Shown here one piece after another: positions 657 through 6,315 of a stretch of DNA of 64,000 bases. A model generated the notes under the pieces. The model saw only the letters and a program-made list of their open reading frames with translations. It did no database searches and was not told where the DNA came from. Within the stretch, counting starts at the first letter, position 1, and every line of letters starts with the position of its first letter. A program made the translations under genes and the position numbers. This DNA is from Alphaproteobacteria bacterium (lineage in GTDB: Bacteria; Pseudomonadota; Alphaproteobacteria; UBA8366; Aestuariispiraceae), in NCBI GenBank assembly GCA_030065235.1, contig JASJDC010000003.1:1-64000 (forward strand), read 5' to 3'.

Positions 657-785
657 ATGAGCCGCAGTCTCGGTGATGGACCGTTCAAGAATGAATGGGT
701 TCCCAAAGGAGAGAGCTTAACCACACTGTTCCAGGAACGCGCTCAGCGTTGGAACAAGGACGACTGGCGCGATCCAGCGGCGTAA
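657..785 (+). CDS. Small or truncated ORF after the kinase (42 aa)
   Basis: An ATG 17 nt after the PfkB stop opens a 42-codon frame beginning MSRSLGDGPFKNEW and ending WRDPAA. It has mixed, protein-like composition with four Trp and balanced charges, unlike the Arg/Pro-rich shadow frames nearby. It overlaps the 3' end of the convergent large gene by 43 bp. It could be a genuine small protein or the N-terminal stub of a gene cut when the neighbouring lower-GC cassette arrived. I do not recognise the family, and the ribosome-binding site is weak. Confidence 0.3.
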   Translation: MSRSLGDGPFKNEWVPKGESLTTLFQERAQRWNKDDWRDPAA

Positions 786-3700
786 CAAGGCTGATCGTCA
801 GAGCCGCGCGACCTCCAGGGGTGTACGTTAACCATCACTGCGTTCGTTCGCCCTTCTGCGGTCCAAACGCGGAGCGGTGCGCTGGGTATCTGTGTTCTCC
901 CGCCAACCAGCGGCTCCACACATTGGAAATATGCGACAATACCGCGCATGTCGGGCAAAACTTCCACGCGAGTCGCGGTTTGGCCGGCCAGGCTGACGAC
1001 CGTACCGCGCCAGAGCCGTTCGCCCACAAGCACAAGGCTGCCCCGTCGCCCGGATTCGAGCTCAAGCGCAGCGTCCGTGCTCGCCTGCAAGTCGTTCTGC
1101 CAACCCCAATCGAAGTAAGGCGTCTTGATCACGTCGAGATGAAAGCGCGATGCGATCTCTACCGCACGTCGTGGCAACTTAAGATGAAATTCCTGATTGA
1201 AGGTGGCGTCATCCTTCTCACCACAGAGTTCGGTGAAAAGCCTTGCCGCCCCTTCCTCTTCGATTGACTCTTGCAGCGTCTCCGCGTCGGCCCAGCAAGC
1301 GCGCGCCTCAACGTCGACCGCGCCCCACCAACTTGGGACGGAGACGATGGCGGAAAGACGCTCGGTCCTCCGCCCGTCCGAGCCCTCCTGGAGGAAAGCC
1401 CAGCCGAAACGCACCGTGCGACGCGGCGTTTCTTTTGGCAGGTCACCGTCGAGCGTGCTGAATCCGATCAGGGTTGGAATATTGCGGCGCTCAATCAGGT
1501 CCCGGGTCCTTCCGACGCCCGCGTTTACTGAACCAAATGCCGCCAAGGCGTCCGCCGCTATACTGGCAGCGATATCCAACTGCTGATCAATATCCCGAAC
1601 GGCGCCGAGGATGCGCGGCGCGACACTATAGACCGACATGTCCCCCGTTTGCTGATTGAGCCAACGACCGAGCCGACAGGCGGTGTAGCGTTCGACGACG
1701 GCCATCGAGAGCGCTTTCGCCGGCTCGTCGGCGCGGCGGACCGCCGGCCAGGCGGCAGCCTTAACCGCTAAGAAGGCCCTGGCGGCGCATTCTTTAAGAT
1801 CACTGTGTTCGTAAGAATTGTTCCTGTCTTCTTCTTTGCGGCCAGTATTCTCTTTGTTGTCTCCGTCGAATGCCCCGCAGTCGTCATCGCGAAAATCGTC
1901 GCTGCAAAACTGCTGAAGGATCTTTTGCTCATCGGGATCGAGATCCGCGATCGGCAAGGGTTCAAGATGTATGCGGCACGTTCCGCTGTCGCAATCGTCA
2001 CGCGAAACACGGAAGAAACGGCTTAATGGGTTGGCGTTACTCCGGTTGTCGCTCAGGCGCTTCTCGATATGCTTCGACACCAACTCGTGCGCAAGGCGCT
2101 GCGGCGGCGGGCAGAAAAACGCTTCGACCAACTGCGGAGTATCTTTCCTAGTTTTTGTCCTGTCACCGAAATCGGCATCGGGGTCGCCTTCACAGATCGG
2201 CGGGCCGCGCATCAACTTCGCGGCTAGCTTGGCGCGTATTTTCTCGGCCTTGTGTTCGGGACTCCCTTCTCTGTTTGTCGGAGGGGCGGCTGTCCCGCCA
2301 TTATCTTCCGAATTTCCCGCTCCGTGTGTCTGCGTGGCCCCACTCTTATCCTTGACTCCGAAATCCTCCAATCCGGTTGTCTGCGAGGAGCCATTCTTGT
2401 CGTCGAATTTGGAAGTCCCCGCTCCGCTTGCCGGCGTGGCGGGTGCCGAGGCCTTGGTACTTTCCTCTTCGCGATTAGTATTAACCTTTCGTAGATTCGA
2501 GTAGGGATCTTCCTCGCTCGAATCCAGGTCGACGCTCCCAGACTCAATAAAGGATGCCAATCGGCCGTCGAACCTCTTGAGGAATTTGTCGATTACCGGC
2601 CGGTTGGGCGTTTGTTTAGCGAATTCTTCTGCGATCTCTTGGATTGCTTCCTCGGCGGTCGAGGCGTCCTCGCCGGGCGACCAACGACAAGGCCAAAAAT
2701 TCGGGTTTTCATAGGGACATATCTTGCCCTCGGGAAGCAACGAAGCGCGAAGCGCCTCTAAGACCATGATCAAATTATACGTGGCTCGCTGGCCAGTCGG
2801 GTCACGGTCGAGGGGAGTACAGTTCGGGTCGTTTGGATCATAGGTCCCCTTGCAAAATGGGTTGAGCAGTACCTGCAATAGGTTGTATGATATTTCGGTT
2901 GTTACATTGGCAGTCGCAAGGGCGGGAGCCAAGGTTCTAGCTACTAAGTTCTCGCTGCGATCGTTGTCGCTTTGTTCACCATCCGGCAACCCAAGTGCGC
3001 CGCGCACGAATTTCTCTGCAGCTTTCCTGTTCCGAGGAGCATCTCCGTGCTCGCTAAATCCGATTGTCTTGCAAGCCTCGCTGACCGGCTCGTCGCGACA
3101 GGTTGAGGTATCCATGGCCTCAAGAATAAAGGCGACGAAACGCTGCTCAATCTCTTTTCGCAGTAGGACGCTAAAGTCGACCGCCTCCGCAGGGTTGGTC
3201 GCGTTCTCGAAAGTGCCGTCCCGTCCCAACGATTCGACGCGCCCTTCCATCGAGTGATGAAGCAGAGTGCCCATCTCACCGCGTAGGTCACGCAGCAACT
3301 CTAAATCTTGGTCGTTGGTCGAGGCGATGTGTTTCCATGCAGCATCGTGCTTTTTATCAATTTTCTTAGGGTTTTCGTGAATAGCCTCCCTCAATGCCGC
3401 CACAGATACTGGCTCGTTCAATGTAGGTTCACGTACCTCGAACAGAAATAGCCCCGCTGAACGTCGGCTGTTATGAGGCCAGGGCAACGCAGTCACATCG
3501 AAGTTCAGGCGGTAGAGCGTGCTCTGCGCCAAGTCATGGCCATCGTCTAACTGGGAGTTCATCAACTCCGTCCGCAACCGGTTTCGATGCGCTATGCGAC
3601 GCTCCAGGACATCGAATGGATCGAGCTCGACCGAGACCGCGCCGCTCGATTCGGTATCATTCCGCGTGGGCGACTCGACTGCGTCCTGTCCGCCGACGGC

Positions 3701-4090
3701 GACCAGAGTCCAAAGACGTTCCATATCGCGACTACCGGCGTTTGCAAAACGTTGATAGTCCTCTTCTTTTCTGGTTTGGGTTAGTTCGGCGTTCAGCCAC
3801 TGAGCTTCCTTAAGCCTGTCGTTGACGAGCCGCTCACGGGTAAAAACTTGAGGTGTTTCTATATAGAGCAGCCCGGCAGGTTCGTCGTCCCAGATATAGA
3901 TCAATAAAAATACCACCAACGCTACAAATACGATTGCGACGGCAGAAAGTATCAGCCGTTCTAGGCCAACCCACTTGAGCAAGAAGTTCCAAGTCTTTGC
4001 TAAATATGGTTGAACTAAGCCTGTCCACTTGAGTAAAAACGTCCAACTCCTAGCCAGGATCGGTCGAGGCAGTTCTTCGGTCTCAGCCAT
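743..4090 (-). CDS. Large membrane-anchored protein of the Grr-like RiPP cassette
   Basis: Unrecognised protein of about 1115 residues. The ATG at 4090 is chosen because it overlaps the radical SAM stop by 8 bp, implying translational coupling; an in-frame start at 4111 would lie deeper in the upstream gene. The N-terminus carries two similar Trp-rich segments (SWTFLLKWTG and TWNFLLKWVG, about residues 15-43), then one hydrophobic helix at about 47-68. The rest, roughly 1040 residues, lacks further clear membrane spans and has many scattered Cys, which suits an N-in, periplasmic C-out topology with disulfides. A Ser/Thr/Gly/Asn-rich linker near residues 548-615 is built of four 17-residue repeats. 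Known GrrM loci often carry a periplasmic binding-like protein (GrrP); this gene holds a comparable place but is far larger. A role as receptor, export partner or target of the modified peptide is inference only. Confidence 0.75.
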   Translation of the reverse strand: MAETEELPRPILARSWTFLLKWTGLVQPYLAKTWNFLLKWVGLERLILSAVAIVFVALVVFLLIYIWDDEPAGLLYIETPQVFTRERLVNDRLKEAQWLNAELTQTRKEEDYQRFANAGSRDMERLWTLVAVGGQDAVESPTRNDTESSGAVSVELDPFDVLERRIAHRNRLRTELMNSQLDDGHDLAQSTLYRLNFDVTALPWPHNSRRSAGLFLFEVREPTLNEPVSVAALREAIHENPKKIDKKHDAAWKHIASTNDQDLELLRDLRGEMGTLLHHSMEGRVESLGRDGTFENATNPAEAVDFSVLLRKEIEQRFVAFILEAMDTSTCRDEPVSEACKTIGFSEHGDAPRNRKAAEKFVRGALGLPDGEQSDNDRSENLVARTLAPALATANVTTEISYNLLQVLLNPFCKGTYDPNDPNCTPLDRDPTGQRATYNLIMVLEALRASLLPEGKICPYENPNFWPCRWSPGEDASTAEEAIQEIAEEFAKQTPNRPVIDKFLKRFDGRLASFIESGSVDLDSSEEDPYSNLRKVNTNREEESTKASAPATPASGAGTSKFDDKNGSSQTTGLEDFGVKDKSGATQTHGAGNSEDNGGTAAPPTNREGSPEHKAEKIRAKLAAKLMRGPPICEGDPDADFGDRTKTRKDTPQLVEAFFCPPPQRLAHELVSKHIEKRLSDNRSNANPLSRFFRVSRDDCDSGTCRIHLEPLPIADLDPDEQKILQQFCSDDFRDDDCGAFDGDNKENTGRKEEDRNNSYEHSDLKECAARAFLAVKAAAWPAVRRADEPAKALSMAVVERYTACRLGRWLNQQTGDMSVYSVAPRILGAVRDIDQQLDIAASIAADALAAFGSVNAGVGRTRDLIERRNIPTLIGFSTLDGDLPKETPRRTVRFGWAFLQEGSDGRRTERLSAIVSVPSWWGAVDVEARACWADAETLQESIEEEGAARLFTELCGEKDDATFNQEFHLKLPRRAVEIASRFHLDVIKTPYFDWGWQNDLQASTDAALELESGRRGSLVLVGERLWRGTVVSLAGQTATRVEVLPDMRGIVAYFQCVEPLVGGRTQIPSAPLRVWTAEGRTNAVMVNVHPWRSRGSDDQPCYAAGSRQSSLFQR
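2255..2458 (-). repeat. Four tandem 51-bp degenerate repeats inside the large gene
   Basis: Units lie at 2255-2305, 2306-2356, 2357-2407 and 2408-2458. Each is exactly 51 bp (17 codons), so the frame is kept. On the plus strand each unit carries a core resembling tccgtttgtctgcgtggc. In the minus-strand protein they encode a low-complexity Gly/Ser/Thr/Asp linker. The units have drifted apart, so the expansion is old. Confidence 0.75.
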
Positions 4091-5195
4091 TTGCGGTCTC
4101 CCAGGCCTCAAGGACGGCGTCCAACGTCGCTTTGCGGGTGAGGCGGCAGTAGAGTGTTTCGGCGCCGGCGAAATCCCCGAGTTCGAACCACTTGTTGGCC
4201 GGCGCGCCGCCGCCGCAGACCGTGAAGTAGCCGCATGACTGGGCGCAGGCGACGACGCCCCGCTCGATATCGGCGCGAAGCTTCATGAAGACGGGGTTTT
4301 CGAGGATCGCCTCGGGCCCTTCGCGATGCACGTCCGCGAAGGCGAAGTCGTCCCAACGCGTTGTCGGGGTTCCGAGAAGTTCCGGAGAATAGGTTGACAT
4401 CTTGCCATCGACTGAGACGGAGACGATCGCGAGGGGGCTGACCTGTGGATTGGAAGCGCGGACTTCCGGCGGCGCCGATAGCAGCCACCGAACGCCCTCC
4501 ACCTCGCGAAGTCTGAGCCCTGGGTCCGCGCGCTCAATCGCTCGACTCAAAAACCGCTTGTAGAGCCGCTCGATATCGTCGCCCGCGAGACTGCTCTCAC
4601 CATGGACCCCTTCAATTTCCTCGACATTGAGCCCGACCTCGACGGCCCCCAATCCCGCGAAGAAATCGAGCACCTCGTCGGGTTCGCGAAGCGCGTCCGC
4701 CGTCAAAACGGCGATCACGTGAAACGCTTGACCGGCGTCGCGGAGGGCGTCGACCCCTCTCATCACAAGCGCGTGGCTGCCGCCCCCGGCGCGGGTCCGC
4801 CGGCGCGCGTCATGCAGTCGGGCCGGTCCGTCAATGCTGACTCCCACCCGAACATTATAAGCGCGCCACAACTCGATCCAAGTTGGGTCGATATGAATGC
4901 CGTTTGTCTGGAAACCGTGGCGAAGTGTTTTGTCCGGAGCGTTGGCGGCGAGCTTTTCGAAGGCGTCGCGATACCACTCTGGCGGCACGGTCATCGGTTC
5001 CCCCGCATGCCACGCGATGTCGATCTCGGAGGCGACCAACGGACTGGCGAGAAGATTACGCCCGATCGCATCCAATGTGTCCAACGTCATGCGGCGTCGG
5101 TCATTGCGAAACGGAAGGTAGCAGTACGCGCAGTCCAAACTGCAATAAGGGGTCGGCTGGACAACCACCAGCCGAACAGGGGCCCCTTCGTTCAC
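4083..5195 (-). CDS. grrM: GrrM-type cyclophane-forming radical SAM/SPASM maturase
   Basis: Peptide maturase expected to install C-C crosslinks between aromatic side chains and nearby residues of the small protein encoded just upstream. The radical SAM motif is CSLDCAYC (CxxxCxxC, about residues 18-25). It is followed by the family-typical segments IAWHAGEPMTVPPEWY, HGFQTNGIHID and VSIDGPARLHD. The C-terminal SPASM-type part has CAQSCGYFTVCGGGAPANKW and a later YCRLTRKATLD, giving Cys ligands for auxiliary Fe-S clusters; CGGGAPANK and ETLYCRLTR are hallmarks of the GrrM branch as I know it. The GTG at 5195 overlaps the precursor stop as GTGA; a TTG at 5216 would add seven residues. The stop overlaps the next gene by 8 bp, so all three genes look like one operon. 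Confidence 0.88.
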   Translation of the reverse strand: MNEGAPVRLVVVQPTPYCSLDCAYCYLPFRNDRRRMTLDTLDAIGRNLLASPLVASEIDIAWHAGEPMTVPPEWYRDAFEKLAANAPDKTLRHGFQTNGIHIDPTWIELWRAYNVRVGVSIDGPARLHDARRRTRAGGGSHALVMRGVDALRDAGQAFHVIAVLTADALREPDEVLDFFAGLGAVEVGLNVEEIEGVHGESSLAGDDIERLYKRFLSRAIERADPGLRLREVEGVRWLLSAPPEVRASNPQVSPLAIVSVSVDGKMSTYSPELLGTPTTRWDDFAFADVHREGPEAILENPVFMKLRADIERGVVACAQSCGYFTVCGGGAPANKWFELGDFAGAETLYCRLTRKATLDAVLEAWETANG

Positions 5196-5401
5196 CAATT
5201 GCGCCAATTGGGCCAATTCTGAAAGCCATTATACCAATTATTCCACTGCGCGACGCGTTCGCCCGCATCAGAAACGCCGCGCTCCTGGAGAGCCGCCATA
5301 CGCTCTTCAAGCGCTGTGCGCTCCGCAACCGCGCTTGGTTCAATGAGGCCGGAATTGGCGGGAGATCCAGCGATAATCAGGGCGAAGAGGAGAGGGTTCA
5401 T
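5192..5401 (-). CDS. GrrA-like RiPP precursor with aromatic-x-Asn core
   Basis: A 69-residue peptide starting MNPLLFALIIAG, a short hydrophobic N-terminus that could be a secretion signal. A charged middle part (about residues 21-50, EERMAALQERG) looks like a leader helix. The C-terminus, residues 53-69, reads WNNWYNGFQNWPNWRNW. It parses as five aromatic-x-Asn triplets (WNN, WYN, FQN, WPN, WRN) with one Gly insertion and a terminal Trp. Three-residue cyclophane formation joins an aromatic residue to the residue two positions on, so each triplet is a possible ring. Classical GrrA proteins are Gly-rich; this core is compact and nearly Gly-free. The frame is open up to 5479, but the hydrophobic start and length favour 5401. 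Confidence 0.8.
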   Translation of the reverse strand: MNPLLFALIIAGSPANSGLIEPSAVAERTALEERMAALQERGVSDAGERVAQWNNWYNGFQNWPNWRNW

Positions 5402-6240
5402 GCGATGGGATCCAATGCTATCAGCGCAACGTTGGCGGCACAGTTCAGATCGGATGGCGCGACACGGCGCTCTTTTCAAGAGAAGGCGTCAAAAAACCTT
5501 GTCCGTTATCAGGTTGCCCGGCCGAACGGTATTCCTACCACAAATTATATGTATCGTACTTTCGTTGATGGCGATATACAAGAAAAATCGCATCCTTTCC
5601 GCGCTAAGGCGCATTTGAATGCAGCCGGTAAACTCTCTCGAGTTAATGCAAGTCTTTGAGTGGTTTGAAGACGTGGTTAACCGGTTTCAGCACTTTTTCT
5701 GGAAATGGGCGTAGTTTTTGCCTCTTTGGCTCACGCCGAGGTTTCGCCTGACTTCCCTCTATAAGACTTCTCGGCAATCCGAGCTTTCGTTGCACCGTCA
5801 ACCCGACCGCCCGGCGGCTGATCTCTCGGTCTGAAACCGTTGACAGAGCGTGTGCATCAATTGAACGCTGTCGCCCTCCACGTGGCGGGCGAATGTCGAC
5901 GATCATGAGAGTGCGCAAATAGCGGCGCGCCACTGTGCCGAGGGTCGCGTCGGCGGCTGGAGACGATGGCGCCGTATTGGCCGGTACATCGTGCGCGACG
6001 CGGATTCTACTTCGGTATAGGTATCGTGAGTCGTTGGCGGGCGGCGCGGTGGAGCTTGGTGGCGCGTATCGGATTGGGCGGCTTCTTCGCCAAAGCGGCC
6101 GCACGGGCGTCGCGGGGGATGTTGGCTTGGTCGACGTCCCGGCTGCTCACCGAAGTACGGGTTCTCGACGGTAACGCGCGAGTTTCTCCGAATTTCAGAA
6201 AAACCTGCATTTCGTACATGCGGTAAGTGATTGTTTTTAA
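5402..6240. other. Intergenic region upstream of the RiPP cassette
   Basis: About 840 bp without a supported gene. The part next to the precursor (about 5470-5650) is clearly AT-richer than the window average. Open frames at 5643-6104 (minus) and shorter ones on the plus strand have Arg/Pro/Ser-rich translations typical of shadow frames and no recognisable domain. The stretch may hold decayed sequence from the arrival of the cassette, but no insertion-sequence ends or integrase were seen. Confidence 0.5.
5544..5549 (-). promoter_or_regulatory. Candidate -10 box of the RiPP operon
   Basis: A perfect TATAAT on the minus strand lies in the AT-rich stretch about 140 bp upstream of the precursor start. 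No good -35 hexamer sits 16-18 bp upstream (TTGTAT is about 26 bp away), so the site may need an activator or may be chance. Confidence 0.3.

Positions 6241-6315
<75 letters not shown>

Follow-up and report, generated by a model that had tools for sequence, protein, structure and literature searches.

Among the ribosomally synthesised and post-translationally modified peptides (RiPPs), triceptides carry three-residue cyclophanes formed by radical S-adenosylmethionine (SAM)/SPASM enzymes. The enzyme OscB, of the GrrM/OscB family, joins Trp C7 or Phe C4 to the beta carbon of the Asn (or, with Trp, the Asp) at position i+2 (PMC11002830). The triceptide literature, as far as it was checked, covers the enzymes, with no biological role described for GrrM products. 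Here we consider a GrrM locus at one end of a 64,000-nucleotide stretch of an alphaproteobacterial genome of the family Aestuariispiraceae (contig JASJDC010000003.1, positions 1 to 64,000; hereafter the window). On its minus strand, at 743-5401, genes for a 69-residue peptide, a GrrM/OscB radical SAM enzyme and a protein of 1115 residues form a compact operon. We tentatively read this operon as a triceptide cassette with a dedicated large periplasmic partner, the large protein probably serving, to judge by its location and architecture, as receptor or scaffold for an exported ringed peptide.

The enzyme and its predicted substrate

The initial annotation of the window, made from its letters alone, had proposed three genes joined by GTGA and ATGGCTGA overlaps, and both coordinates and overlaps proved exact: the precursor/enzyme junction reads ...TTGGTGAAC..., with GTGA shared, and the enzyme/large gene junction reads ...AAATGGCTGAG..., with ATGGCTGA shared. 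In-frame TTG codons offer alternative starts for the precursor gene (upstream, at 5479) and for the enzyme gene (at 5216). The GrrM-type enzyme, small repeat peptide and single membrane anchor that the initial annotation described, and the lack of a recognised binding-like gene in the cassette, are likewise borne out by what follows. Coordinates are collected in Table 1.

The enzyme matches TIGR04261 (GrrM/OscB) over residues 19-373 at 369 bits (2.4e-110), past the curated cut-off of 310, and the Pfam Radical_SAM profile at 2e-17. It falls far under the curated cut-offs for AmcB (297 of 425 bits), FxsB (90 of 370) and YhhB (119 of 445), and likewise for XyeB and the darobactin or dynobactin enzymes. 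Its C-terminal cysteines form a C-X3-C-X5-C group followed by a later cysteine, with equal spacing in the related locus L008; read by eye, this is a partial SPASM pattern only.

The precursor ends in AQ-WNN-WYN-G-FQN-WPN-WRN-W, which contains five Trp/Phe-X-Asn triplets, the known substrate motif of OscB, and so has the tandem aromatic-X-X3 core (X3 being Asn or Asp) by which triceptide precursors are recognised. Such a tandem aromatic-X-Asn run occurs once in the ~97,000 residues of the window's six reading frames, all of which were scanned; because it is unique there, and the arrangement recurs in four other genomes, the match is not a chance one. Given the enzyme family, the known OscB linkage and the five triplets, ring formation at the triplets is to be expected. 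The N-terminus of the precursor is hydrophobic and signal-like (MNPLLFALIIAGSPA).

Table 1. Features of the cassette, its surroundings and related loci (window positions unless a locus is named)
Feature	Position	Strand	Remark
Precursor peptide gene	5192..5401	(-)	69 amino acids (aa), ATG start at 5401
Predicted core WNN WYN G FQN WPN WRN W	5195..5245	(-)	five Omega1-X-Asn3 triplets
GrrM/OscB-type radical SAM/SPASM maturase gene	4083..5195	(-)	370 aa from GTG overlapping precursor stop
Radical SAM cluster motif CX3CX2C (CSLDCAYC)	5121..5144	(-)	read from translation
Large membrane-anchored protein gene	743..4090	(-)	1115 aa, 8-bp overlap with enzyme gene
Predicted single N-terminal membrane helix, ~residues 45-67	3890..3958	(-)	hydropathy scan
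Conserved N-terminal domain (TPQVFTRERLVNDR ... LDDGHDL..STLYRLNFDVT)	3263..3871	(-)	eight-sequence alignment A7
Conserved C-terminal region (SVPSWW ... LW.GTVV ... VLPDMRGI ... VWTAEG)	779..1660	(-)	eight-sequence alignment A6
Putative immunoglobulin (Ig)-like (IPT/TIG-type) C-terminal domain, ~residues 1008-1095	806..1069	(-)	AlphaFold model and Foldseek
tRNA-Thr (GGT)	6241..6315	(-)	cassette on its 3' side; variable site in relatives
251-aa gene	L088 8613-9368; L103 9970-10725		65% identical to each other
Free-standing large lipoproteins, 857-1246 aa	L115 7244-10072; L116 6603-10343; L120 7893-10466

Recurrence of the cassette

A search with the enzyme led to Paracoccus halophilus (55% identity) and Chachezhania antarctica (43%), where the loci L008 and L009 hold a precursor, an enzyme and then a protein of 1058 or 1088 aa, in the order seen in the window. 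Two further loci came from genome G228 (L088), in a 385-genome sample of the class, and from G426 (L103), of the same family as G228. In these five genomes, the window's included, the order is precursor, enzyme and a ~930-1115-aa protein with one N-terminal helix, and the genes overlap or nearly abut. The initial annotation knew of no such locus; the four others of matching architecture make this a recurrent variant and not a one-off, and rule out a unique orphan cassette. The window enzyme groups with that of P. halophilus in the enzyme tree (support 100/99), which leaves the deeper order open.

All five precursors have a hydrophobic N-terminus, a variable middle and a conserved AQW core start, followed by five or six aromatic-X-Asn/Asp triplets. 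The signal-like N-terminus of the window precursor is the weakest of the set, those in L008, L009, L088 and L103 being clearer signal peptides. The L088 precursor scores 23.5 bits against TIGR04260 (GrrA/OscA1), under the cut-off of 31. In alphaproteobacterial metagenome genomes (L010, L011 and L019), the precursors encoded upstream of the GrrM gene contain W-X-D triplets in very extended runs, well in excess of five.

The four other linked large proteins are 23-30% identical to the window protein over their full length. G228 and G426 have an extra gene, coupled between those for the enzyme and the large protein, whose 251-aa product matches nothing in Pfam or NCBIfam. Between these two genomes, the ratio of non-synonymous to synonymous substitution rates is 0.39 for the large gene, 0.20 for the enzyme, 0.29 for the 251-aa gene and 0.27 for the precursor, and therefore all are maintained under purifying selection.

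Across the class sample, GrrM is present in 5/385 genomes and the large protein in two, both among the GrrM five; with the window genome set aside, GrrM remains in 4/384 and the single large protein is accompanied by it (1/1). Since the window genome was chosen, gene order and overlaps carry the argument for linkage, not this co-occurrence. The set is also biased towards linkage by the two loci that came from the enzyme search, the searches with the large protein being its unbiased part. Related-locus searches with the large protein alone, tblastn of P0004 against plasmids, viral contigs, the orders to which G000 and G057 belong, and that of G784 apart from G784 itself yielded no leads.

The large protein

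No family match above chance was found for the large protein in Pfam, NCBIfam, PADLOC, PHROGs or PDB sequences. A Pfam TSP_NTD hint (0.019) was dropped, as it was far under the cut-off and absent from homologues, as were PADLOC viperin and cyclase hints, which were generic or very weak. The hydropathy scan gives one membrane segment in the window protein and one N-terminal cluster in each GrrM-linked homologue. Lys and Arg residues on the N-terminal side of the helix suggest that the remainder of the protein is periplasmic, and the cysteine counts of the five linked members (18, 12, 18, 12 and 10), all of them even, fit an oxidising periplasm.

Common to all five linked members are an N-terminal domain with PQVFTRERLVNDR ... 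LDDGHD ... LYRLNFD and a C-terminal region with SVPSWW ... LPDMRGI ... VWTAEG. An AlphaFold model covering residues 811-1104 is of fair quality at its Ig-like end alone, where the blocks have a predicted local distance difference test score (pLDDT) of 63-89, and Foldseek with this partial model returned Ig-like domains, including the IPT/TIG domain of EBF1 (TMt 0.61), at E-values of only ~1e-3 to 1e-2. This end has no Pfam profile match, and the model suggests that the protein ends in an Ig-like domain of IPT/TIG type. Directly before the membrane helix, residues 14-42 (window ~3965-4051) hold a short internal repeat, ARSWTFLLKWTGLV / AKTWNFLLKWVGLE, possibly an amphipathic element, which was not seen in the homologues.

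The family extends beyond the cassette, as free-standing relatives exist. In samples of the phylum, profile searches brought up two full-length, distant relatives, one each in G784 and G805, and tblastn found one more on a Vibrio plasmid (BFG51036.1, Vibrio sp. MAO6). These three begin with lipoprotein signals (LSGC, LAGC and LYGC) and have no membrane helix by the hydropathy scan. No tandem-motif peptide was found in the 17-18 kb surrounding them; tblastn detected no GrrM near the G784 and G805 relatives, and near the Vibrio one, where the annotation alone was checked, it lists hypothetical proteins. Truncated relatives without GrrM also occur, one behind an IS21-type insertion element (L104) and one a 158-aa remnant (L105). 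The free-standing lipoproteins are a rare family that corresponds to no described one. According to the initial annotation, homologues found widely without a radical SAM or precursor gene would refute its reading of the cassette, and this applies only weakly: the relatives without GrrM are rare and distant, and the full-length members with a membrane helix that were found lie beside GrrM in 5/5 cases.

Genomic setting

The cassette is AT-richer than its surroundings, as had been claimed, with 58.3% GC against 60.5-66.3% in equal-sized stretches of the remaining window; the large gene, at 56.8%, is the main source of this low value. Its proposed location between core genes stands on one side, which holds tRNA-Thr, dCTP deaminase and MurA, and less well on the other, where only the C-terminal half of a PfkB-type kinase is present at the contig start. 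The first 249 bases of the window, within that kinase gene, make a hairpin: positions 1-99 and 151-249 are perfect inverted copies of 99 bp, and 98-121 / 127-150 extend the pairing. Lying at the end of the contig, this hairpin is probably a product of faulty assembly.

Three genomes of the same family keep the order of tRNA-Thr and dCTP deaminase, and the genes on the other side of the tRNA differ each time, which makes the place beside tRNA-Thr a variable site. A search of 43 genomes of the order turned up no other GrrM of the cassette's type, and together with the variable site this fits a horizontal arrival of the cassette. An att-like direct repeat was looked for at tRNA-Thr and none was found. 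Between cassette and tRNA, window 5480-6240 is a 760-bp stretch of 55% GC, AT-richer again and with no recognisable gene, which may be the place of a promoter or of integration remnants.

Proposed role and alternatives

That the compact operon recurs in at least five bacteria makes the large protein look like a dedicated partner. On the model that we tentatively prefer, GrrM would act in the cytoplasm, as its family membership strongly indicates, and link Trp or Phe to the beta carbon of the Asn two residues on, so that up to five tandem rings could form in the C-terminal core of the precursor. The signal-like N-terminus, as in the other precursors, would then take the ringed peptide across the inner membrane. 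There an ectodomain of ~1050 residues, held by one inner-membrane helix and carrying the Ig-like end, may receive, retain or present it, as coupling, topology and cysteine content suggest. Judging by its relatives, the partner may have been recruited from the rare free-standing large lipoproteins, with a membrane helix replacing the lipid anchor.

Several points weigh against this model. Cross-linking and partner binding are predictions here, and the role given to the large protein follows only from its location and architecture: the searches brought up no domain in it whose ligand is known, its middle is poorly conserved, and the full-length AlphaFold model (pLDDT 42) is too poor to use. The window precursor does not match TIGR04260 and, if the ATG start is right, has no basic n-region in its signal-like stretch. 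The tree is compatible with one origin for the five GrrM enzymes as well as with several (p-AU 0.345).

A bolder form of the model, which we hold to be rather unlikely, makes the five-ring peptide part of an envelope complex, permanently or under regulation, and not a secreted antibiotic; exported to the periplasm only, it would dock in the large ectodomain as the ribosomally made, radical-stapled cofactor or ligand of a new receptor family.

The nearest competitor, itself unlikely, casts the large protein as a maturation or export accessory: the ringed precursor would dock on it at the inner membrane, and it would aid removal of the signal or leader and pass the product on, the peptide then being released to act outside. 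Translational coupling to the enzyme and the inner-membrane anchor would suit such a role, and RiPP loci as a rule include genes for processing or export; however, nothing in Pfam, NCBIfam or PDB marks the protein as a peptidase, ATPase or transporter, it has a single membrane helix only, and its free-standing lipoprotein relatives have no peptide gene nearby. Improbable, in our view, is an antibacterial peptide with the large protein as an immunity or sequestering protein, acting on the periplasmic side to guard the producer. Antibiotics are known among cyclophane RiPPs, dynobactin being one (PMC11002830), and the rare, patchy distribution and the variable site by a tRNA gene fit conflict genes, but the cassette has no exporter, immunity proteins are rarely so large, and the lipoprotein homologues occur without a peptide. 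Slightly less probable again is a tethered or diffusible peptide signal sensed by the large protein, the pair forming an envelope sensor to which the 251-aa gene of two loci would add a component: an ectodomain with an Ig-like end, and the fourth gene coupled between the enzyme and large genes in G228 and G426, would agree with sensing, yet the large protein has no cytoplasmic output domain and the cassette no regulator gene. That the large gene is a passenger beside a GrrM locus, with no shared function, is highly improbable, since five loci retain order and overlaps despite protein identity down to ~23-30%, even if distant homologues without GrrM exist.

Kept coupled to enzyme and peptide in five genomes, the large protein offers a direct handle on the role of a GrrM product and is a candidate binding partner for it. 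It also brings to light a new protein family that comes in two forms, a lipoprotein that stands alone and a membrane-helix protein linked to the peptide, and this opens the question of what the recruitment of a ringed peptide adds.

Comparison with known systems

AmcB, XyeB, FxsB and YhhB are, like GrrM, radical SAM/SPASM makers of three-residue cyclophanes, and the window enzyme is set apart from all of them by its distance below their cut-offs. On a Streptomyces plasmid (L093, 4440-12540), a GrrM gene has lanthionine synthetase C-like, lantibiotic dehydratase and thiopeptide-type genes around it and may belong to a hybrid RiPP locus.

Two other loci, L012 (Aestuariivirga) and L089 (in G323), resemble the cassette in having GrrM and an aromatic-X-Asn precursor beside one large gene. 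Their large neighbour, in contrast, is an nSTAND1 NTPase (PF20703) that lies upstream of the precursor and is unrelated in sequence to the large protein here; both GrrM cassettes are directly downstream of it (L089 3570-8387 and L012 4282-9200). STAND NTPases are a class linked to biological conflict systems, and this association of triceptides with STAND proteins merits its own look.

With the lipoproteins L115 (G784), L116 (G805) and BFG51036.1, the large protein has in common the N-terminal motif and the C-terminal region with its predicted Ig-like end. They differ in having a lipobox in place of the helix, in their ~17-25% identity, and in that no GrrM or W/F-X-N peptide was found within ~7-8 kb of them.

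The closest described systems are the GrrM/OscB triceptide loci of three-residue cyclophane-forming enzymes (3-CyFE), such as the cyanobacterial OscA/OscB, which share with the cassette the TIGR04261 enzyme, the C-terminal tandem aromatic-X-Asn core and the signal-like N-terminus of the precursor. The precursor here, unlike theirs, is under the GrrA cut-off, and no GrrP-like substrate-binding gene was recognised within the cassette, as judged by eye from the list of open reading frames and by the large protein's lack of an NCBIfam match. As far as could be checked, in literature that did not include primary triceptide surveys or Grr-locus papers, this is a real, recurrent and undescribed variant of the GrrM triceptide locus. 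What is known is the GrrM triceptide arrangement; what sets the variant apart is a conserved membrane-anchored protein of ~930-1115 aa coupled to the enzyme, and we read this as the usual partner having been replaced by a recruited periplasmic protein of lipoprotein type.

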